From contig NZ_CP108455.1 of NCBI RefSeq assembly GCF_036241575.1, positions 943,501-1,007,500 on the forward strand: DNA of 64,000 nt, written 5' to 3'. The stretch comes from Streptomyces sp. NBC_01267 (GTDB taxonomy: Bacteria > Actinomycetota > Actinomycetes > Streptomycetales > Streptomycetaceae). Every line of letters starts with the position of its first letter. The first letter of the stretch is position 1. Shown here piece after piece: positions 4,084 to 41,262 of this stretch. Position numbers and translations under genes: made by a program. A model generated the notes under the pieces. The model saw nothing but the letters and a program-made list of their open reading frames with translations, ran no database searches and was not told the DNA's origin.

Positions 4084-4300
4084 CGGCATAGACCTGGAAC
4101 CGAAGTGATGGACGATGCCGCAGAATCGGGTAACGGCCGTGCTGCTGACCGGAGTCGGGCACCACCTCGTGCACCGGGACCGGCAGCAGGCTCCGGAGGT
4201 CCGGCCCGTGCGCGATCACCTCCATGGCGGCGCGGCCGACGGCCTCCACGCCCATCCCGAGCCTGGATTTCTGCCGGGTGAACGTGAAGCGGGACGCCAA
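4079..4300 (-). pseudogene. unidentified coding-like fragment upstream of the hydroxyproline operon
   Basis: A leftward open frame ending in TGA at 4079 shows strong G/C preference in third codon positions for about 50 codons (it includes MGVEAVGRAAMEVIAHGPD), then decays toward its end. I do not recognise the family and found no convincing start. It overlaps the probable promoter of the deaminase gene, so it is more likely a leftover of an ancestral gene than a working one. On the opposite strand, 4115-4543 is also open except for one TAG at 4391; I prefer the leftward reading because of its codon bias. Confidence 0.3.
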
Positions 4301-4590
4301 CTCATCGGGGGCCGCCGTCCCTTCGCAGATCTTGATGCCGACCGCGCCCGCGAAGTCCGGGACTACGAAGCCTGGTTCGGCGAAGGCGGGTAGGCGAAGG
4401 CGGGTTCGGCGAAGGCCGACCAGTCCGCGAAGCCGACCCTTGTCCCGCTGGTCCGGGACTACTTCACCGCGCGGTGCGGGCCCGAGTCCGCTGCCAAGAT
4501 CTCCGGCCTGCACCAGAGCCCAAAAAGCAAAGATCAGAAGTAAAGTTGGCACACTCCTGAGAGACCCTGAGAGAACTGGGACGGGTACTG

Positions 4591-5550
4591 ATGGAACTCG
4601 AACTCCGACACCTGCGGATTCTGTGCACGATCGCCGACACGATGAGCCTCGGCCGGACGGCCACCGTCCTGGGGTGCTCACAGCCCTCGGTCAGCAGCCA
4701 GCTGAAGCGCATCGAGCGGCTCATGGGCGAGGACCTCTTCGTCCGGGGCAGTGCGGGGGTGACACCGACGCGCTTCGGGGTCGAGGTGGTGGTGCAGGCC
4801 CGCGAGGTGGTGGCGCTGGCGAACGCGATCGGGCGCCGGTCCACCGCGGAACGCCGCGAGACCGGTCGGGTGCTGCGGGTAGCCGCGACGAACACGCCCA
4901 TCCTGCCGGGGCTCCTGCAGCGGGCGCGCACCGTCCTGCCGGCGCTGACCACGCAGGTGAGCAGCGTGTACTCCTCGGCCGAGATCATCGGGCTGCTCGA
5001 GGACGACAAGCTGGACGTCGCCGTCGCGGTCGACTATCCCGGACGGGATCTGGGGCATTCGGAAGCCGTGGCGCACCGCTGCATCGTCACCGAGCCCAGC
5101 TTCGTGGCCCTGCCCGCCGCCCACCCGGCGAGCGGCCAACTGGACGTGCCGCTGCTCGATCTGGCCGGGGACGCATGGTTCATGACACCCGACGACGGTG
5201 CGGGCTGGCCCGGTGTCTGCTACGACGCCTTCCAGGCGGCCGGCTTCAGACCCGCCACCGTGCACGAGTACCTCGGTGACCGGGACCAGTTGCAGCGGAT
5301 GATCGCCGACGGGCTGGGGATCTCCCTCGTCCAGGCGACGTGCAAGCCGAACCCGGGTGTGGTCGTCAAGCCGCTGACCGGCACACCGCTGTGGTGCCGC
5401 TATGTACTGGTGTGGCACCGGGAGCGGGTGTCCGACGAGGTCACGGAGACGCTCTTCGGCGCGGCCCTGGCCGCCTACGAGGAACTCATCGCCCGGGCAC
5501 CGCACTTCCGGGCGTGGGCCGCCCGGCATTACGGGGCCCGGCGGAGCTAG
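4591..5550 (+). CDS. LysR family transcriptional regulator
   Basis: 319 residues. The N-terminal helix-turn-helix (about residues 5-65, TATVLGCSQPSVSSQLKRIERLMGE split by the usual turn) is followed by a periplasmic-binding-protein-like effector domain (about 95-300, with RVAATNTP and LGISLVQA segments). It is divergent from the hydroxyproline operon and convergent with the collagenase, with a hairpin terminator behind it. It could regulate either neighbour; ligand unknown. The 557 bases between it and the operon hold the promoters and the unidentified fragment noted at 4079. Confidence 0.88.
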   Translation: MELELRHLRILCTIADTMSLGRTATVLGCSQPSVSSQLKRIERLMGEDLFVRGSAGVTPTRFGVEVVVQAREVVALANAIGRRSTAERRETGRVLRVAATNTPILPGLLQRARTVLPALTTQVSSVYSSAEIIGLLEDDKLDVAVAVDYPGRDLGHSEAVAHRCIVTEPSFVALPAAHPASGQLDVPLLDLAGDAWFMTPDDGAGWPGVCYDAFQAAGFRPATVHEYLGDRDQLQRMIADGLGISLVQATCKPNPGVVVKPLTGTPLWCRYVLVWHRERVSDEVTETLFGAALAAYEELIARAPHFRAWAARHYGARRS

Positions 5551-33954: not shown

Positions 33955-34551
33955 TCAGTCCTCGTCGGCCAGGATCAGATAGAGCTTCTTCCGGGACTCC
34001 CCGATGACGGCCATCGCCTTCTTGCGCTGCTCGGGCGTACCGGTCCTCCAGACCTGACCGAACGCCTCCATCAGACCGAATCCGGCCTGCCGGACCTCGT
34101 TCATCGTCTCCCAGTCGCCACCGCGCCCCGCCGCGTCCTCCCAGGGGGCGTCGGGCCCCTCGTCGGCCGCCGTGCGCCCGGACCCGGTGAGCGTGAACAG
34201 CTTCTTGCCGCCCTCGCTCTCGCTGGTGATCAGCCCCTCGTCCTCGAGCAGCTGAAGCGTCGGATAGACGGAACCGGGACTGGGGCGCCAGGCCCCGCCA
34301 CTGCGCTCGCCGATCTCCTGAATCATTTCGTAGCCGTGCATGGCCCGGTCCTTGAGCAGAGCCAGGATCGACGCACGCACGTCACCGCGGCGCGCCCTGC
34401 CCCTGGGTCCGCCCCTGCCGCCGCGCCCGCCGAAAGGGCCGCCGAACGGAGGGCCGAACGGACCGAAGGCCCCCCGACGCCCTTCGAAGTCACCCCGACC
34501 CTGATGGCCGGGGCCGCCGTTTCCATGTCCATGGGAACGCATCGCGCTCAC
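33955..34551 (-). CDS. PadR family transcriptional regulator with glycine-rich N-terminal tail
   Basis: 198 residues; ATG 34542 is an alternative start. After a Gly/Arg/Phe-rich tail of about 50 residues comes the PadR winged helix (DVRASILALLKDRAMHGYEM, GSVYPTLQLLEDEGLI, KLFTLTGSGR) and a C-terminal dimer helix. The promoter region contains CGATATATCG (34586-34595) and TCGTTGA/TCAACGA arms. The Tn7-like element begins only 78 bases upstream, so it may have cut the gene from its former neighbour. Confidence 0.85.
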   Translation of the reverse strand: MSAMRSHGHGNGGPGHQGRGDFEGRRGAFGPFGPPFGGPFGGRGGRGGPRGRARRGDVRASILALLKDRAMHGYEMIQEIGERSGGAWRPSPGSVYPTLQLLEDEGLITSESEGGKKLFTLTGSGRTAADEGPDAPWEDAAGRGGDWETMNEVRQAGFGLMEAFGQVWRTGTPEQRKKAMAVIGESRKKLYLILADED

Positions 34552-34560
34552 TTCCTTCCA

Positions 34561-34595
34561 TCGTTGATCTGTCGCGATGCGTCAACGATATATCG
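34561..34595. promoter_or_regulatory. PadR autoregulatory operator candidate
   Basis: Inverted arms TCGTTGA (34561-34567) and TCAACGA (34582-34588) overlap the perfect palindrome CGATATATCG (34586-34595). Both lie just upstream of the padR start. AT-rich palindromes of this kind are typical PadR targets. Confidence 0.5.
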
Positions 34596-34628
34596 GAACT
34601 GTTCTTTTAGCAATGCACTCGAAACCGC

Positions 34629-34705
34629 TGTCCTGTGACAGCGAATCTCGTTCGATTGCCACTGAACTTTGACCACCGGTACGTTCCTGCCACCGAACTT
34701 TGACC
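34629..34705 (+). repeat. left end of the Tn7-like transposon with TnsB-type binding repeats
   Basis: The 46-bp TIR is followed by another copy of its inner part: TGCCACTGAACTTTGACC at 34657-34674 and TGCCACCGAACTTTGACC at 34688-34705. The mirrored right end has TGCCACTGAAGTTTGACC and CAGTGAACCTTGACC. A possible TTG start for TnsA at 34700 falls within the last copy. Confidence 0.85.
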
Positions 34706-34720
34706 GTTGAGGTTGGAGGC

Positions 34721-35485
34721 GTGGTGGGGGCATCGGCTCAGGCGTACGGGGATCCGGCGTTATCTGCCTTTGAGCTGGACTTTCTTGAGTCTGGTGGGCG
34801 TCGTCGCGGGCCGTTGGGCCAGTTGTGGAGTACGCGGTTTGAGGGCGTTCAGCCGGTACGTGAGTTCCGGTGGGCGAAGGGTGGGGAGAGCTTCCCGGGC
34901 TGGTACTTCGCGGCGACGACCAGCGGTCACGTGGGCTACGAGTCGTGGCTGGAGCGGGACTGTTTGATCTTGCTGGACCGTGATCCGAGGGTTACCGGGA
35001 TCGCCTCGCAGCCGTTCTGGTTGCACTGGCAGGACGGTCCTGCACTGCGTCGCCATGCGCCTGACTACTTCGTACGCCTTGCTGACGGGCGGGCCAGGGT
35101 GGTCGATGTCCGGTCCGCGGACCGGCTGGACGAACGAACCGGAGAGGCGTTCGCGGCGACGCGTCGGGCCTGTGAGGCGGTGGGCTGGGAGTTTGCGTGG
35201 ATGGGCACGCCCGAGCCGGTGTTCATGGCGAACTTGCGCTGGCTGGCCCGCTACCGGCGGACCCGCTCGGGACGCCCGGAGGGGGTGGCGGCCTCGCTGG
35301 TGGAGGTCTTCGAGGAGCCGCTGCCGTTGTGGTCGGGAGCCGGCAGGGTGGGCGATCGGCTGCAGGTCCTGCCGGTCCTGTTTCATCTGCTGTGGTCCGG
35401 ACGGCTGGGCACGGACCTGGAGTCCGCGGTGCTGGGGGCGGACAGCCTCGTCTGGACAGAAGGGCGGGCGGCATGGGCAGGATGA
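34721..35485 (+). CDS. tnsA: TnsA-like transposase endonuclease subunit
   Basis: About 254 residues; GTG 34721 or 34724 follows GGAGG. The TnsA N-terminal nuclease pattern is visible: the Glu of HVGYESWLERDCLILLD, Asp in RHAPDYFV, and VVDVRSADR where the usual E/D-x-K motif ends in Arg instead of Lys. TnsA cuts the 5' ends of the transposon so that it moves by cut-and-paste. The Arg may still support catalysis or may indicate a weakened nuclease. Its TGA overlaps the TnsB start (ATGA at 35482). Confidence 0.82.
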   Translation: MVGASAQAYGDPALSAFELDFLESGGRRRGPLGQLWSTRFEGVQPVREFRWAKGGESFPGWYFAATTSGHVGYESWLERDCLILLDRDPRVTGIASQPFWLHWQDGPALRRHAPDYFVRLADGRARVVDVRSADRLDERTGEAFAATRRACEAVGWEFAWMGTPEPVFMANLRWLARYRRTRSGRPEGVAASLVEVFEEPLPLWSGAGRVGDRLQVLPVLFHLLWSGRLGTDLESAVLGADSLVWTEGRAAWAG

Positions 35486-37534
35486 AGCGGCCGGGTCGGG
35501 TCGCGGTCGGTGACCGGGTGCGGTTCGAGGGCCAGATCCGCGGAGTGCTCGCCGTTGCCGCCCAGGCGGTGACGCTGGCGGAGGGCGAAGAGCCGTATCG
35601 GGTCGTGCCGTTGCTCGAGTTGTTCGCGGCAGCCGATTTCAAGGTCGTGGACAGCCCGGTTCGGATGCCGTTGCCGGCGGCCTCGCTGCTGGAGGCATTT
35701 CCCGCCCGGGAGGTGGAGAGGGCTCTGTGGTGGGAGGGCCACATCCTGGAGGTGCTGCACGGGCTGCCGCCCGGAGCGGAGCCCGGTACGGCGGTCCGGC
35801 CTGAGTACGGGCCGGAGCGGTCCTTGACCGCCCGGCAGCGGGCAAAGGCCGCTGAGCTGACTGCCGCTGGTCACAAGGTCTCTGCCAGTACGGTCGCCCA
35901 CCGTCGGCGTCGCTACCAGGAACGCGGGGTGCTGGGCCTGGCCGATCACCGGCCGGTCCGCAGGACGGCCGAGTTCGGGGAGGTCGACGATGCGGTGGTG
36001 GCCGCGATGCGGCAGGCGATCAAGGAAGCGGTGGACGCCTCAACCCGCACGGGGACGTTCATTTTGTGGCGGACCGGCGAGATCCTCAAGGAAGCACCTG
36101 GTGGGCAGGGAGTTGGGCTTCCCTCGCAGCGGACGCTCTACCGGCTGCTGGCGAAGCTGACTTCGGGCACTCACACGTCCGGCTCGGCGGTGACCCGCAG
36201 GTCCAGGGCCCACGGGGCCACGACGCCGCACGGTGAACTGCCCGTGTTCGCACCGGGCGAGGTCATGCAGATCGACTCCACCTCGCTGGATGTGCTGGTC
36301 CTGCTCGACAACGGCGTCACGGGCAGAGTCGAGCTCACCGCCATGATCGATGTCGCCACTAGGACGCTGACAGCGGCGGTGCTGCGGCCGACCACGAAAG
36401 CCGTGGATGCCAGCGTGCTGCTGGCCCGCACCGTCACTCCCGAACTGATGCGGCCGGGCTGGGCGGACGCGCTCAGGATGTCCCGCTCGGTGTTGCCGCA
36501 CCGCAGGCTCCTGGCCCTGGACGAGCGTCTGGCCCATGCGGCGGCCCGGCCGGTGATCGTCCCGGCGGTCATCGTCTGTGATCACGGCAAGGCCTTCCTC
36601 TCCCGCAACTTCATCTCCTCCTGCCGGTTCTTGGAGATCGAAGTGCAGCCGGCCCATCAGTGCTCGCCCTTCGAGAAGGGGCATATCGAGAAGATGCTGG
36701 GCTCGGTGGCCACGCTGTTCGCACAGTTCCTGCCCACCTACACCGGCCGCAGCGTCGAACACCGCGGCCGGCACCTGGAACGCGAACGGGTGTGGTCGCT
36801 GCTGGAGTTGCAGGAGCTGCTGGACGAGTGGATCGTCGCGAAGTGGCAGAACCGCAAGCACGACGGTCTGCGCGATCCGGTCCACCCGGGCCGGCTGTTC
36901 ACGCCGAACGAGAAGTACGCCGCCTTGGTGGAGGCCTGCGGCTACGTCCCAGTCGCACTCAGCGGCGACGACTACGTCGAACTCCTGCCCGCGGAATGGC
37001 GGGTGGTCAACGACTACGGCATCCGGATCAAGAACCGCACCTACGACAGCCGGGCGTTGGGGCCGATGCGCCGCCAGAACTCCGGGGTCCGGGCGAAACG
37101 CGGCCTCTGGGAGGTCCACCGCGACCCCTACGACGTCTCCCGGATCTGGGTACGCAACCACCGCGGTGACAACGAGTGGGTCCCGGCCACCTGGAAGTTC
37201 CTCAACCGGGCACCGATTCCCTTCGGCGACCTGGCCTGGGACCACGTCAGCCACCAGCTGCCCCGCGCCACCCGAGGCGGAGATCGCCGACGCGGTCGCC
37301 GCCCTGCTCACCCGAGCCCACGGCGGCCCGCAGACCGAGCAGGGACCGGGGCCCGGCAAACGCGACCGGCGGGTGGCGGCCCGCACGAAAGCCGCAGGCC
37401 CGCTCACCCCGGCATCCGTTACCGGTGCTCAGGCGGAGCCAGAGGACGAAGCGGACGAGAGCGAGGAGTCGGTGGCCGAGGTGATCCCGCTCGGACTGTT
37501 CGACCCGCTGGAAGACCCCTGGAAGCGCTCATGA
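35482..37534 (+). CDS. tnsB: TnsB-like DDE transposase (Mu/retroviral integrase core), +1 frameshifted near its C-terminus
   Basis: About 684 residues once corrected. The catalytic triad is Asp in MQIDSTSLDVLVLLD, Asp in VIVCDHGKAFLS and Glu in FEKGHIEKMLGSV, with N-terminal HTH domains (TARQRAKAAELTAAG) and a Mu-transposase C-terminal barrel (NDYGIRIKNRTYDSRAL). The frame changes near 37270: the first frame turns into Arg/Gly-rich nonsense while the +1 frame continues sensibly (EAEIADAVAALLTRA ... DPLEDPWKRS) to TGA at 37534. An extra C in CCC at 37271-37273 would explain it. Without correction the frame runs straight into TnsC. Confidence 0.85.
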
Positions 37535-38550
37535 CGGCATCGTCCGCGCTGCCCCAGGACTCCCAGCGGCACTTGACCACGATCGACGGCTGGCGCCGCT
37601 TCGTCGAAGGGCCACCGGGTCCGCCGCCCCGGCTGACCGACGCTCAGTACGACGCGCTGGGCGAGGCCGGCCAGGCGGCCTTCGACGAGGCCCGTCTTGA
37701 CCATCACGGCCGTCTTCTGGTGGTCGCCACCTCCGTCGTCCGGCACACCGTCGCCACCGGACGCCGCCTGGTCGTGCTGAACCGGCACGCGATCAGTGCC
37801 CGCCGGGGCCTGATCGTCTCCGGCCCCGCCGGCACCGGGAAGACCATCGCGATCACCCAGCTCGGTCTGTCCCACGAACTGCTGGACCGGGCCCGGCACC
37901 CCACCGCCACCGACCGCAAGCCGGTCATCTACATCACCGTCCCGCCCGCCGCGACCCCTCGCATGATCGCGGCCGAGTTCGCCCGTTTCCTCGGGCTGCC
38001 GGTGATGGCCCGCATGAACATCACCGACCTCATCGAGTCCGTCGTCGGTGTCTGCACCGACGCCCGCACCGGCATGATCCTGGTCGACGAACTCCACAAC
38101 ATCTCGCTCACCACCCAGCACGGCGCCGAAGTCGCCGACACCCTCAAGTACTTCTCCGAGCGGATCCCCGCGACGTTCATCTACGCGGGCATCGACATCG
38201 AGCACGGCAGCCTGCTGACCGGCACCCGCGGGGCCCAGATCGCCGGCCGTTTCACCCTGATCCCCACCCACCCCTTCCCTTACAACAGTGAGTGGCGGGG
38301 CCTGGTCGCCACCATGGAGAAGACCCTCGCCCTGCGGCGGCACCGGCCCGGCACCCTGGCGAGACTGGACCGCTACCTGCACGACCGCACCGGCGGCATG
38401 ATCGGCGCCCTCTCCCACCAGATCCGCGGAGCCGCGATCGACGCGATTTTCAATGACACCGAGAAGATCACCAAAGCCGGGCTGAAGGCCGTCCCACTGG
38501 ACGTCGCCGCCGAATCGCCTCACTTCCGCGGGCCAAGGTCCTCCCGATGA
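37531..38550 (+). CDS. tnsC: TnsC/TniB-like AAA+ ATPase
   Basis: 339 residues. Walker A is GPAGTGKT near residue 98 and Walker B is MILVDELH near 188, with the IYAGID sensor strand following. In Tn7-type systems this ATPase links target choice by TniQ to the transposase. The ATG overlaps the (corrected) TnsB stop, and its own stop overlaps the TniQ ATG. Confidence 0.9.
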   Translation: MTASSALPQDSQRHLTTIDGWRRFVEGPPGPPPRLTDAQYDALGEAGQAAFDEARLDHHGRLLVVATSVVRHTVATGRRLVVLNRHAISARRGLIVSGPAGTGKTIAITQLGLSHELLDRARHPTATDRKPVIYITVPPAATPRMIAAEFARFLGLPVMARMNITDLIESVVGVCTDARTGMILVDELHNISLTTQHGAEVADTLKYFSERIPATFIYAGIDIEHGSLLTGTRGAQIAGRFTLIPTHPFPYNSEWRGLVATMEKTLALRRHRPGTLARLDRYLHDRTGGMIGALSHQIRGAAIDAIFNDTEKITKAGLKAVPLDVAAESPHFRGPRSSR

Positions 38551-39383
38551 CTCACGAGAACGTCCGCGTCCTGCCCTTCCAGGTCCGGCCCCGGTCCGGC
38601 GAAGGCATCCGGTCCTTCATCGTCCGCCTGGCACACGCCAACCATCTTCCGCCCCGCTACCTGCGGACCTACCTCTGCGAACCGCCCGAACATCTCGGTC
38701 TTCCCAGCTGGACACGGCTGGCCGCCGCGACCGGCCGCGCCCCGGAGACGCTGGTGGCCACCCTGGAAACGAGGCGCTGCCTGGAGTGCGACGCGGAGAT
38801 ACCGCCCTCCGACGTCATCGGCCGCCAGGTCCTGCGCTGTTCCCAGGCCTGCCGCGAGAAGGCATACCGGAAACGGCATCCGCGGGCTCCAGTTCAGAAG
38901 GCCCCCTGCAGAGAGTGCGGCAAGAGCATGAAGATCCAGCCCGGACAGCGTTATCGCCTGTGTTCATCCGCCTGCCGACGGGCCAACTACCTCAAACATG
39001 AAGAAAAGTGGTTGGCCGAAGCAGACCCGGCTGATCCATCCGGACCGCGCATCTGCCCCGTCTGCGACGGCCCGATGTTCTCGGCAGCACGCCGGACATG
39101 CTCAGACCGATGCCGCCAGCGAGCACGTCGCCAACAGCTCAGGCAGCCTCCCGCGAACCCACCTTCTCCACCGCCGGTGTCATCGCCGACACCACAGCCC
39201 GCACCACCACCCCAGCCACCCGAACCAGCCCCCACGGCATCAACGAGGCCCTGCGAGACCTGCGGAGAACCACTACCAGCAGGGCCCTGCCAGCAACAAC
39301 GCCGGACGTGCTCACAGCGCTGCCGCCAGAAGGCATACCGGCAGCGGAAGGCCCAACTGGCCCCGCCTAGGCTGGCGCGGTGA
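38547..39383 (+). CDS. tniQ: TniQ/TnsD-like target selector with four zinc-finger modules
   Basis: 278 residues. The TniQ head (LPFQVRPRSGEGIRSFIVRL, HLPPRYLRTYLCEP) is short. It is followed by four CxxC...C(x3)C modules: CLECDAEI/CSQACREKAYR, CRECGKSM/CSSACRRANY, CPVCDGPM/CSDRCRQRARR and CETCGEPL/CSQRCRQKAYRQR, the last two separated by a Pro-rich linker of about 45 residues. The fingers carry basic tails and could read a specific DNA site or bind RNA. The protein presumably directs insertion. Confidence 0.85.
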   Translation: MTHENVRVLPFQVRPRSGEGIRSFIVRLAHANHLPPRYLRTYLCEPPEHLGLPSWTRLAAATGRAPETLVATLETRRCLECDAEIPPSDVIGRQVLRCSQACREKAYRKRHPRAPVQKAPCRECGKSMKIQPGQRYRLCSSACRRANYLKHEEKWLAEADPADPSGPRICPVCDGPMFSAARRTCSDRCRQRARRQQLRQPPANPPSPPPVSSPTPQPAPPPQPPEPAPTASTRPCETCGEPLPAGPCQQQRRTCSQRCRQKAYRQRKAQLAPPRLAR

Positions 39384-40231
39384 CTGATGAGCAGAAACGG
39401 GTGCAGCCGTCGGGAGTGTGGGCCACGGCGGTGGGGGTGGCCCGGGTGCGGGCGCTGGAGACCGAGCGGGAGAACGCGCTGTTCCGCGACCCACTGGCAC
39501 AGGCCTTCGCCACCGCCGGCGGCCTATGGCCCTCCTCGCCGCCGCTGCCCGATGACGAGGCCGCGCGCCGCCGTCGACTGGCCGTGGCGTTCTCCATCGT
39601 CATCAGGACGAAGTTCCTCGACGACCTGTTGCAGCAGGCCTCCGCGTCCGGGGTCCGGCAGGTCGTGCTGCTCGGCGCCGGCATGGACAGCCGGGCCTTC
39701 CGGATCGACTGGCCAGAGGGCACCCGACTGTTCGAGGTCGACACCGCCGCGCCACTGGACTTCAAGGCTTCGGTGCTGCGCCAGGAGCAGGCCGTCCCAC
39801 ACTGCGAGCGGATCACCGTCGCGGTGGATCTGCGGGAGGACTGGCCAGGCGCGCTGGCCGCCGCAGGGCACGACCCGGCGGTGCCGACCGCGTGGATCGC
39901 CGAAGGACTGCTGATCTATCTGCCCGAGGACGCGGTGGAGCTGCTGCTGGCCCGGATCAGCGCGCAGTCGGCAGCAGGCAGCCGGATGGGGCTGACGTTG
40001 GGCTCGCGCGGCGTGATCGAGCGCTTCGGCGCGGACGCCGTGCCGGAATCGGCGGCGTCCATGTGGGTCTCGGAGATGCCCGACGACCCGGTGGGCTGGC
40101 TGGCCGGGCACGGCTGGGAGGCCAGCAGCCACACCCTGCGCGAACGCGCTGCCGCCTACGGCCGCCCGATCAGCACCCCGCCGCAGCGCGAGGAGCGGCC
40201 CGGCGGACTGATCTCGGCGGTCCGCTGGTAA
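39380..40231 (+). CDS. SAM-dependent methyltransferase (TIGR00027/LCMT-like), transposon cargo
   Basis: 283 residues from GTG 39380 in a GTGA overlap with tniQ. The fold is shown by VVLLGAGMDSRAFRIDWP (SAM-binding loop near 95-112), FEVDTAAPLDFK and AWIAEGLLIYLPEDAVELLL. The family methylates O or carboxyl groups on small molecules or polyketides, and Streptomyces genomes hold many copies. Here it ends 13 bases before the right TIR, so it is inside the element and likely expressed with the transposition genes. Confidence 0.85.
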   Translation: MTDEQKRVQPSGVWATAVGVARVRALETERENALFRDPLAQAFATAGGLWPSSPPLPDDEAARRRRLAVAFSIVIRTKFLDDLLQQASASGVRQVVLLGAGMDSRAFRIDWPEGTRLFEVDTAAPLDFKASVLRQEQAVPHCERITVAVDLREDWPGALAAAGHDPAVPTAWIAEGLLIYLPEDAVELLLARISAQSAAGSRMGLTLGSRGVIERFGADAVPESAASMWVSEMPDDPVGWLAGHGWEASSHTLRERAAAYGRPISTPPQREERPGGLISAVRW

Positions 40232-40244
40232 AGCGCCTCCAGGC

Positions 40245-40290
40245 GGTCAAACTTCAGTGGCAATCGGTCAAGGTTCACTGTCACAGGACA
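40245..40290 (-). repeat. right terminal inverted repeat of the Tn7-like transposon
   Basis: Read leftward it starts TGTCCTGTGACAGTGAACCT and matches the left end at 40/46 positions. ACCGC follows on the outside, identical to the left flank. Confidence 0.92.
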
Positions 40291-40302
40291 ACCGCATACG
40301 GT

Positions 40303-41262
40303 CGGTGACCTGTGTCAATGGGTGTTCATCGATTGCCGGCGAAGGCCGATCGATTGACTTCTGTGCCATTCAGGGATGACTGTCTGCGGGGTTCGTGACA
40401 GTGGAGGATGACCGCAGACGGCGACGATCACTCTGCTCGACGGGTCTGTAGTGTGCGGCAATGACAAGAAGCGAGCGGCTCGCGGAGCAGTTGGATTGGT
40501 ACTGGCGCAAGAACCTGCGGCCACGGCTGGACGGTCTTACTGACGAGGAGTACTTCTGGGAGCCGGTGCGCGGCTGCTGGAGCATCCGCCCACGTGGCAC
40601 GTCGGCCGCACCGATGCTGGAAGGCTCGGAGGAATGGACGATGGACTCCGCGTCCCCTGCCCCGGTGCCGGCACCGGTGACCACGATTGCCTGGCGGCTG
40701 GCGCACATCATCGTCTCGTGCCTGGGCTATCGGGTCGGATGGCACTTCGGCGGCCAGGACGTCGACTCCCGGACATTCGCCTACGCGGGGACCGCTGACG
40801 AGGCGCTGGAACAGCTCGATGAGATGTACGGGAGATGGAACGCGGGGGTCCGCGAGCTCTCGGACGCCGACCTGGACAATCCGCCCACGGTGGGTCCCGA
40901 GCGGTTTCCCATGGAGAACAGGGTCCTGCACGTCAACAGGGAGCTGATCCATCACGGCGCCGAGATCTCCCTGCTGCGCGACCTCTACCGCTGGCAGGAC
41001 GGAGCCGGACCGCACCGAATATGACTTTCGGCAACCGTCGATCGAGCTTCGGAGACTGGAGACTTACGTGGAGTCCGTGACGCTCCATGGCTGCTGCCGC
41101 TGATAGGCCTCACGATCTTCAACCGCCGTTCTGCCTTCCCTACGTTCTCCTTCGGGACAGGACAGCGTCATCTGCCGTCGCCGATATGCCTTCTGGCGAC
41201 AGCGCTGACTAGCGTTGATCATCCTTCAGTGGCAATCGATCAGCGATCACTGGCACAGGTCA
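40303..41262. mobile_element. candidate non-autonomous relative of the Tn7-like element carrying a DinB-family gene
   Basis: A left-end-like sequence begins TGACCTGTGTCA at 40306 and contains ATCGATTGCC and GAAGG. A mirrored copy at 41217-41262 reads leftward TGACCTGTGCCAGTGATCGC with the same ATCGATTGCC and GAAGG spacing; 34 of the first 45 positions agree. Both resemble the ends of the neighbouring transposon (CCTGTGaCAgTG...CGATTGCC). ACGGT occurs at 40298-40302 and 41263-41267, a possible 5-bp duplication if the left end is taken as 40303. Only one gene lies inside, so movement would need the neighbour's enzymes. Confidence 0.6.
40461..41024 (+). CDS. DinB/DUF664 family protein
   Basis: 187 residues. 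The four-helix DinB fold is indicated by the N-terminal helix (RSERLAEQLDWYWRKNLRPR), the first metal His in AWRLAHIIVSCLGYR and the C-terminal NRELIHHGAEISLLRDLY with two adjacent His. Such proteins resemble mycothiol-dependent thiol transferases, and some detoxify electrophiles. It is enclosed by inverted repeats related to the Tn7-like ends. The 330 bases downstream hold the right repeat and no gene. Confidence 0.85.
   Translation: MTRSERLAEQLDWYWRKNLRPRLDGLTDEEYFWEPVRGCWSIRPRGTSAAPMLEGSEEWTMDSASPAPVPAPVTTIAWRLAHIIVSCLGYRVGWHFGGQDVDSRTFAYAGTADEALEQLDEMYGRWNAGVRELSDADLDNPPTVGPERFPMENRVLHVNRELIHHGAEISLLRDLYRWQDGAGPHRI

Follow-up and report, generated by a model that had tools for sequence, protein, structure and literature searches.

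The window analysed here, 64,000 nucleotides of the Streptomyces sp. NBC_01267 chromosome, carries a Tn7-like element of 5,662 bp (34629-40290) just upstream of padR, a conserved regulator gene (Table 1). Its inverted ends are 49 nt long and match at 42/49 positions (40/46 by the count of a sequence-only reading that first delimited the element), and the best match after shuffling the right end 200 times was 22/49. Both the TGT/ACA ends and the 5-bp target duplication of Tn7-like elements are present. Putative TnsB-type sites, placed by consensus, start 11, 32 and 63 nt inside the left edge and 11 and 32 nt inside the right one, several at each end as in Tn7-like elements; the left end together with the site at 34691 presents three direct sites, from 34639, 34660 and 34691. 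The exact ends with ACCGC on both sides, the TnsB-site-like internal repeats and the operon of five genes with short overlaps, all described in the sequence-only reading, were confirmed. That reading also proposed a search for further copies, and in the source genome only this one was found.

Table 1. Features of the padR region, the Tn7-like element and its neighbour (window coordinates unless a related locus is named).
Feature	Position	Strand	Evidence or detail
padR, target gene	33955..34551	-	PF03551 71.7 bits vs 27
Conserved padR promoter/operator block, proposed recognition region	34560..34594	-	GATATATC at 34587-34594
Target duplication, left copy ACCGC	34624..34628		sequence
Left inverted end	34629..34677	+	begins TGTCCTGTGACAG
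tnsA	34700..35485	+	NF033179 298 bits vs cutoff 110; PF08722 27.7 vs 26.5
tnsB, frameshifted ~37270-37285	35473..37534	+	PF09299 29.5 bits vs 21.7; start 35473 or 35482
tnsC, AAA+ ATPase	37531..38550	+	TniB 48.6 bits vs 22.4; AAA_22 49.4 vs 27
tniQ, 278 aa	38547..39383	+	N-terminal TniQ part, then four zinc-finger-like Cys repeats
Cargo SAM-dependent methyltransferase, TIGR00027 type	39380..40231	+	284 bits vs 93.55
Right inverted end	40242..40290	-	two direct TnsB-type sites
Target duplication, right copy ACCGC	40291..40295		sequence
Older internally deleted relative, same site	40306..41262	+	right-type end, dinB (40461-41024), tniQ-like scrap, left-type end
tnsB-interrupting element	L015 from 7384; L048 3367-8954; L050 7384-12879; L057 from 6292		

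The genes provide the Tn7-like set: TnsA, a DDE transposase TnsB with the Mu-type C-terminal domain (PF09299), a TnsC/TniB AAA+ ATPase and a TniQ/TnsD selector. TnsA lies far above the cutoff of its family model (NF033179), by which it is a putative endonuclease, and its motif V-D-V-R (D-x-R) places arginine at the third catalytic position, as in 60 of the 62 ungapped rows among 64 aligned TnsA rows; the Tn7 TnsA motif, (D/E)-x-K, has lysine there. Residues 5-75 of TniQ form the N-terminal TniQ fold, similar to that of CRISPR-associated transposons (V-K, I-B), from which the window protein differs in its extra zinc-finger repeats. Comparison of TniQ with the PDB by sequence gave no relevant match, and Foldseek none at E 0.001 or better. 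No Cas gene is among the five assigned genes, which also distinguishes the element from CRISPR-associated transposons and agrees with the earlier statement that CRISPR genes are absent; the accompanying suggestion that targeting relies on TniQ is supported by the comparison of loci below.

The element had been described as intact-looking, and this does not hold, as tnsB carries a frameshift towards its 3' end. The conserved 3' tail is encoded in a different frame (ORF 36578-37534), and the initial frame continues without a stop into tnsC as a single ORF (35197-38550); relatives in which both parts of TnsB were recovered as one piece keep this tail in frame. A same-species genome carries the same element with the same cargo, place and orientation; its tnsB tail is in frame and its tnsB is broken elsewhere by another element. 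A sequencing or assembly error in an otherwise intact element is a serious possibility, a little short of an even chance: the frameshift is a one-base difference in a short single-base run, and the two copies are 99.4% identical over 4.26 kb. Against it, three listed relatives (P0042, P0065 and P0117) also have TnsB and TnsC in one frame, and their TnsB tails, in whole or in the last part, seem to have left the frame; frameshifts of this kind may therefore be real. These are three among the 120 matches listed of the 2,240 that passed, a share biased by the search having been made with the merged frame. A programmed frameshift was not adopted, the closest cluster (P0035, 96%, 686 aa) being full length. 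As it stands, the window copy is probably unable to move by itself, because its tnsB is frameshifted and, in a studied system described in the available text of a 2024 review (PMC11406308), a disordered C-terminal extension of TnsB touches TnsC.

Two further observations concern these copies. In the same-species genome (L077/L076) the repeat on either side of the element is 10 bp long, ACCGCATACG, and not 5 bp as in the window; two insertions close together that recombined could have produced it. Another element splits tnsB in four relatives, each time at codon ~461, and its ends resemble TTTACCGACCG and CGGTCGGTAAA; the copy in L048 encodes two proteins with phage-integrase domains, and this may be a mobile element homing to tnsB.

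A scan with TnsB gave 69 related loci, 60 of them titled Streptomyces, and related TnsB was also present in 306 plasmid records. A perfect 5-bp duplication was found at the best-scoring end pair in 21 of the 61 sequences examined, window included; the score rewards duplication, and seven of the 21 are weak in end similarity (L040, L043, L045, L051, L063, L064 and L075). The 31 elements measured are about 4.5-8.2 kb long and differ in cargo. The methyltransferase was found in none of the 69 loci as fetched, which were cut, and the L015 genome carries it further on. Elements of this kind had been called little described. The window element belongs to an abundant actinobacterial Tn7-like group with its own NCBIfam TnsA model, NF033179; what stands of that statement is that no prior description of these attachment sites was found in the open-access literature, including the available text of PMC10293859, PMC8649781 and PMC11406308.

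PadR adjoins 15 of the 69 related loci, with the insertions upstream of the same padR gene, and the block GATATATCGTTGA, read from the element towards padR, is kept at all padR loci. The spacing between element edge and GATATATC could be measured in 13 of 16 padR loci, window included (the edges are altered in L030 and L032, and the end is missing from L067). It is 34 bp in the window and 35, 39, 39, 40, 40, 40, 40, 41, 41, 41, 41 and 42 bp in the others, so that 11 of the 13 edges lie at 39-42 bp. As related elements have landed repeatedly at this spot in other Streptomyces, it looks like a homing site.

A genus-wide scan of 392 genomes for CAGGWCA 25-45 bp before GATATATCGTTGA detected element-like edges in 29, counted as distinct places (one had been listed twice), and none in a control read backward. 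The edge lies at 39-42 bp in 26 of the 29 (binomial 4e-16 against an even spread over 25-45 bp). Six places were already known (the window, L015, L056 and three from congener padR loci), and 21 of the 23 new ones fall at 39-42 bp. A TnsB-type site with a score of 7 of 9 or better is present at the first register in 16 of the 29, and a TnsA match adjoins four of the other 13. The TnsA genes at some of the scanned sites are only 45-50% identical, so distant lineages appear to use the padR site.

It is very improbable that the padR cluster reflects one ancient inherited insertion, or survival at a harmless spot, without active targeting. Some padR loci are close kin, as are the window and L015, the TnsB of L041 is that of L026, which is located elsewhere, and the intergenic site is likely tolerated. 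However, the padR edges vary within a few bp, the duplications are not identical, either end can face padR and TnsB lineages differ; by eye, 19 of 24 congener padR loci have no edge (four have one and one is equivocal), and a spacing peak 4 bp wide is not expected from survival alone. Random or merely tolerated insertion at padR was rejected because of the same peak. Homing is further supported by the same-species copy at the same padR site. The sequence-only reading had proposed comparison with an empty site; no true same-species empty site was found, the same-species strain also carrying the element.

Related elements occupy other sites. AcnA is the target at 10 of the 69 loci, 41-47 bp from TATCTCGACATCGAGATA, with aconitase confirmed for L038. 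Nine loci precede a gene start, CATGTCAACGTA, and the two that were checked both match DUF317. RecA lies downstream of three loci (L036 by Pfam, L074 and L048 by the first residues), L075 precedes a ubiE/menG-type gene, and L023 and L027 precede genes bearing a helix-turn-helix, which are presumably tap-like. The kind of TniQ follows the site: all 11 readable padR-type TniQs have a zinc-finger C-terminus, and those at the other named sites are mostly of the helix-turn-helix kind. L064 has a padR-type zinc-finger TniQ together with a TnsB from a lineage otherwise found at acnA and DUF317 genes. Several findings count against homing. A close relative with a zinc-finger TniQ, L031, is located at acnA beside an older element; eight loci of the window's TnsB lineage were not found at padR (L007, L012, L016, L017, L026, L028, L052 and L059); L116, a DinB-bearing padR-type relative, lies on a linear plasmid with no padR block nearby and is flanked by the perfect duplication CCCGA; finger number varies among padR-element TniQs; and nine of the 29 scan edges have the edge and spacing without a good TnsB-type site or a neighbouring TnsA gene.

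It was also considered whether TnsC or TniQ could be drawn to the operator by a host factor bound there, either PadR or an unusual shape of the DNA, without TniQ reading any sequence; this is judged unlikely. Palindromic operator-like blocks are shared by padR and acnA sites at about 40 bp, and in L024 the same palindrome stands close by, ahead of a different gene; inspection by eye established no motif shared between the padR and acnA sites. Such a factor does not account for the tracking of target by TniQ kind, the swap in L064 included, and in Tn7 TnsD binds its own site directly (available text of PMC11406308). TniQ-guided homing to a promoter-proximal attachment site upstream of padR is regarded as highly probable. 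As shown by comparison among the loci, insertion recurs at a fixed distance from the putative operator, the kind of TniQ tracks target and the type of end tracks orientation.

The element would then be a site-specific Tn7-like transposon of the actinobacterial TnsA-TnsB-TnsC-TniQ group. Its short TniQ would read the conserved padR promoter/operator block, its zinc-finger tail presumably contacting the operator, and would load TnsC on the outer side of the block, with TnsC perhaps setting the spacing. TnsA and TnsB would insert the element some 40 bp from the block, duplicating 5 bp and placing the three-direct-site end towards padR. As the insertion lies outside the operator, padR is probably spared and its expression presumably unharmed.

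The TnsB-type sites of family elements begin at distances of about 11, 32 and 62 nt from an edge. In all 13 elements with differing ends and a known target, it is the end with three direct sites that faces the target, a rule formulated after the data were seen. This end is the left one in the window element, L053, L023, L036, L035, L040, L043, L045, L051, L063 and L064 (support for the right end is weak in L045 and L063), and the right one, on the tniQ side, in L055 and L031, where the target is likewise on the tniQ side; the rule therefore holds even with the gene block flipped. L055 and L031 are sisters, so only one flip is represented. In eight elements each end has three sites, some of them degenerate (L009, L010, L011, L029, L032, L041, L056 and L061), and all eight elements face right; L013, with an ambiguous right end, and L134, with an L009-like end, face left. 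On the evidence of L134, near-symmetric elements may be able to face either way. The idea that near-symmetric ends abolish orientation control was dropped, the ends of L055 and L031 being the mirror of those of the window element. According to the available text of the 2024 review (PMC11406308), little is known of orientation control in Tn7-like elements, and the end whose sites overlap seems to lie nearest the attachment site; the natural end flip of L055 and L031 would offer a clean test.

The element resembles prototypic Tn7 with TnsD in having TnsA, TnsB, TnsC and a TniQ-domain selector, in its 5-bp duplication and in inserting to one side of a recognised block, at a set distance from it. 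It differs in that its TniQ is short and carries a zinc-finger array, and in that its block is a padR promoter/operator, whereas that of Tn7 is the 3' end of a gene. Tn6022 with TnsF, as given in the available text of Faure 2023 (PMC10293859), also combines a small TniQ with zinc fingers in the target selector, but there the fingers are in a separate TnsF; in the window they are within TniQ and the operon has no TnsF-like gene. The available text of Benler 2021 (PMC8649781) describes a second, Actinobacteria-dominated Tn7-like clade, none of it experimentally characterized and with no attachment site or experimental work given; the window element is likened to this clade by host phylum, by its score against the NF033179 TnsA model and by its TnsB with a further Tn7 gene adjacent.

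A broader generalisation, with about an even chance of holding, is that Streptomyces Tn7-like elements carry short TniQs with exchangeable C-terminal DNA readers (variable-length zinc-finger arrays or helix-turn-helix) and home to about 40 bp outside the promoter operators of conserved genes such as padR, acnA and recA, their orientation being set by the end with the third TnsB site and not by gene order. If true, a large Tn7-like group called experimentally uncharacterized would gain defined attachment sites and compact protein-only target selectors, and Streptomyces genetics could make use of protein-guided insertion some 40 bp from a natural operator.

The DinB element noted next door in the sequence-only reading is an older relative at this site with an internal deletion. 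Its right-type end resembles that of L029, and dinB is cargo in L029 and in the plasmid copy L116, so the window element entered between padR and this older occupant. Other elements abut L017 (~5000-5150) and L031 (~4300-5158) end to end, which suggests that elements pile up at attachment sites. A more distant Tn7-like lineage with a different end repeat (L118, L142 and L146) also lies 40-42 bp from the padR operator; its TnsA is ~50% identical in L142 and L146.
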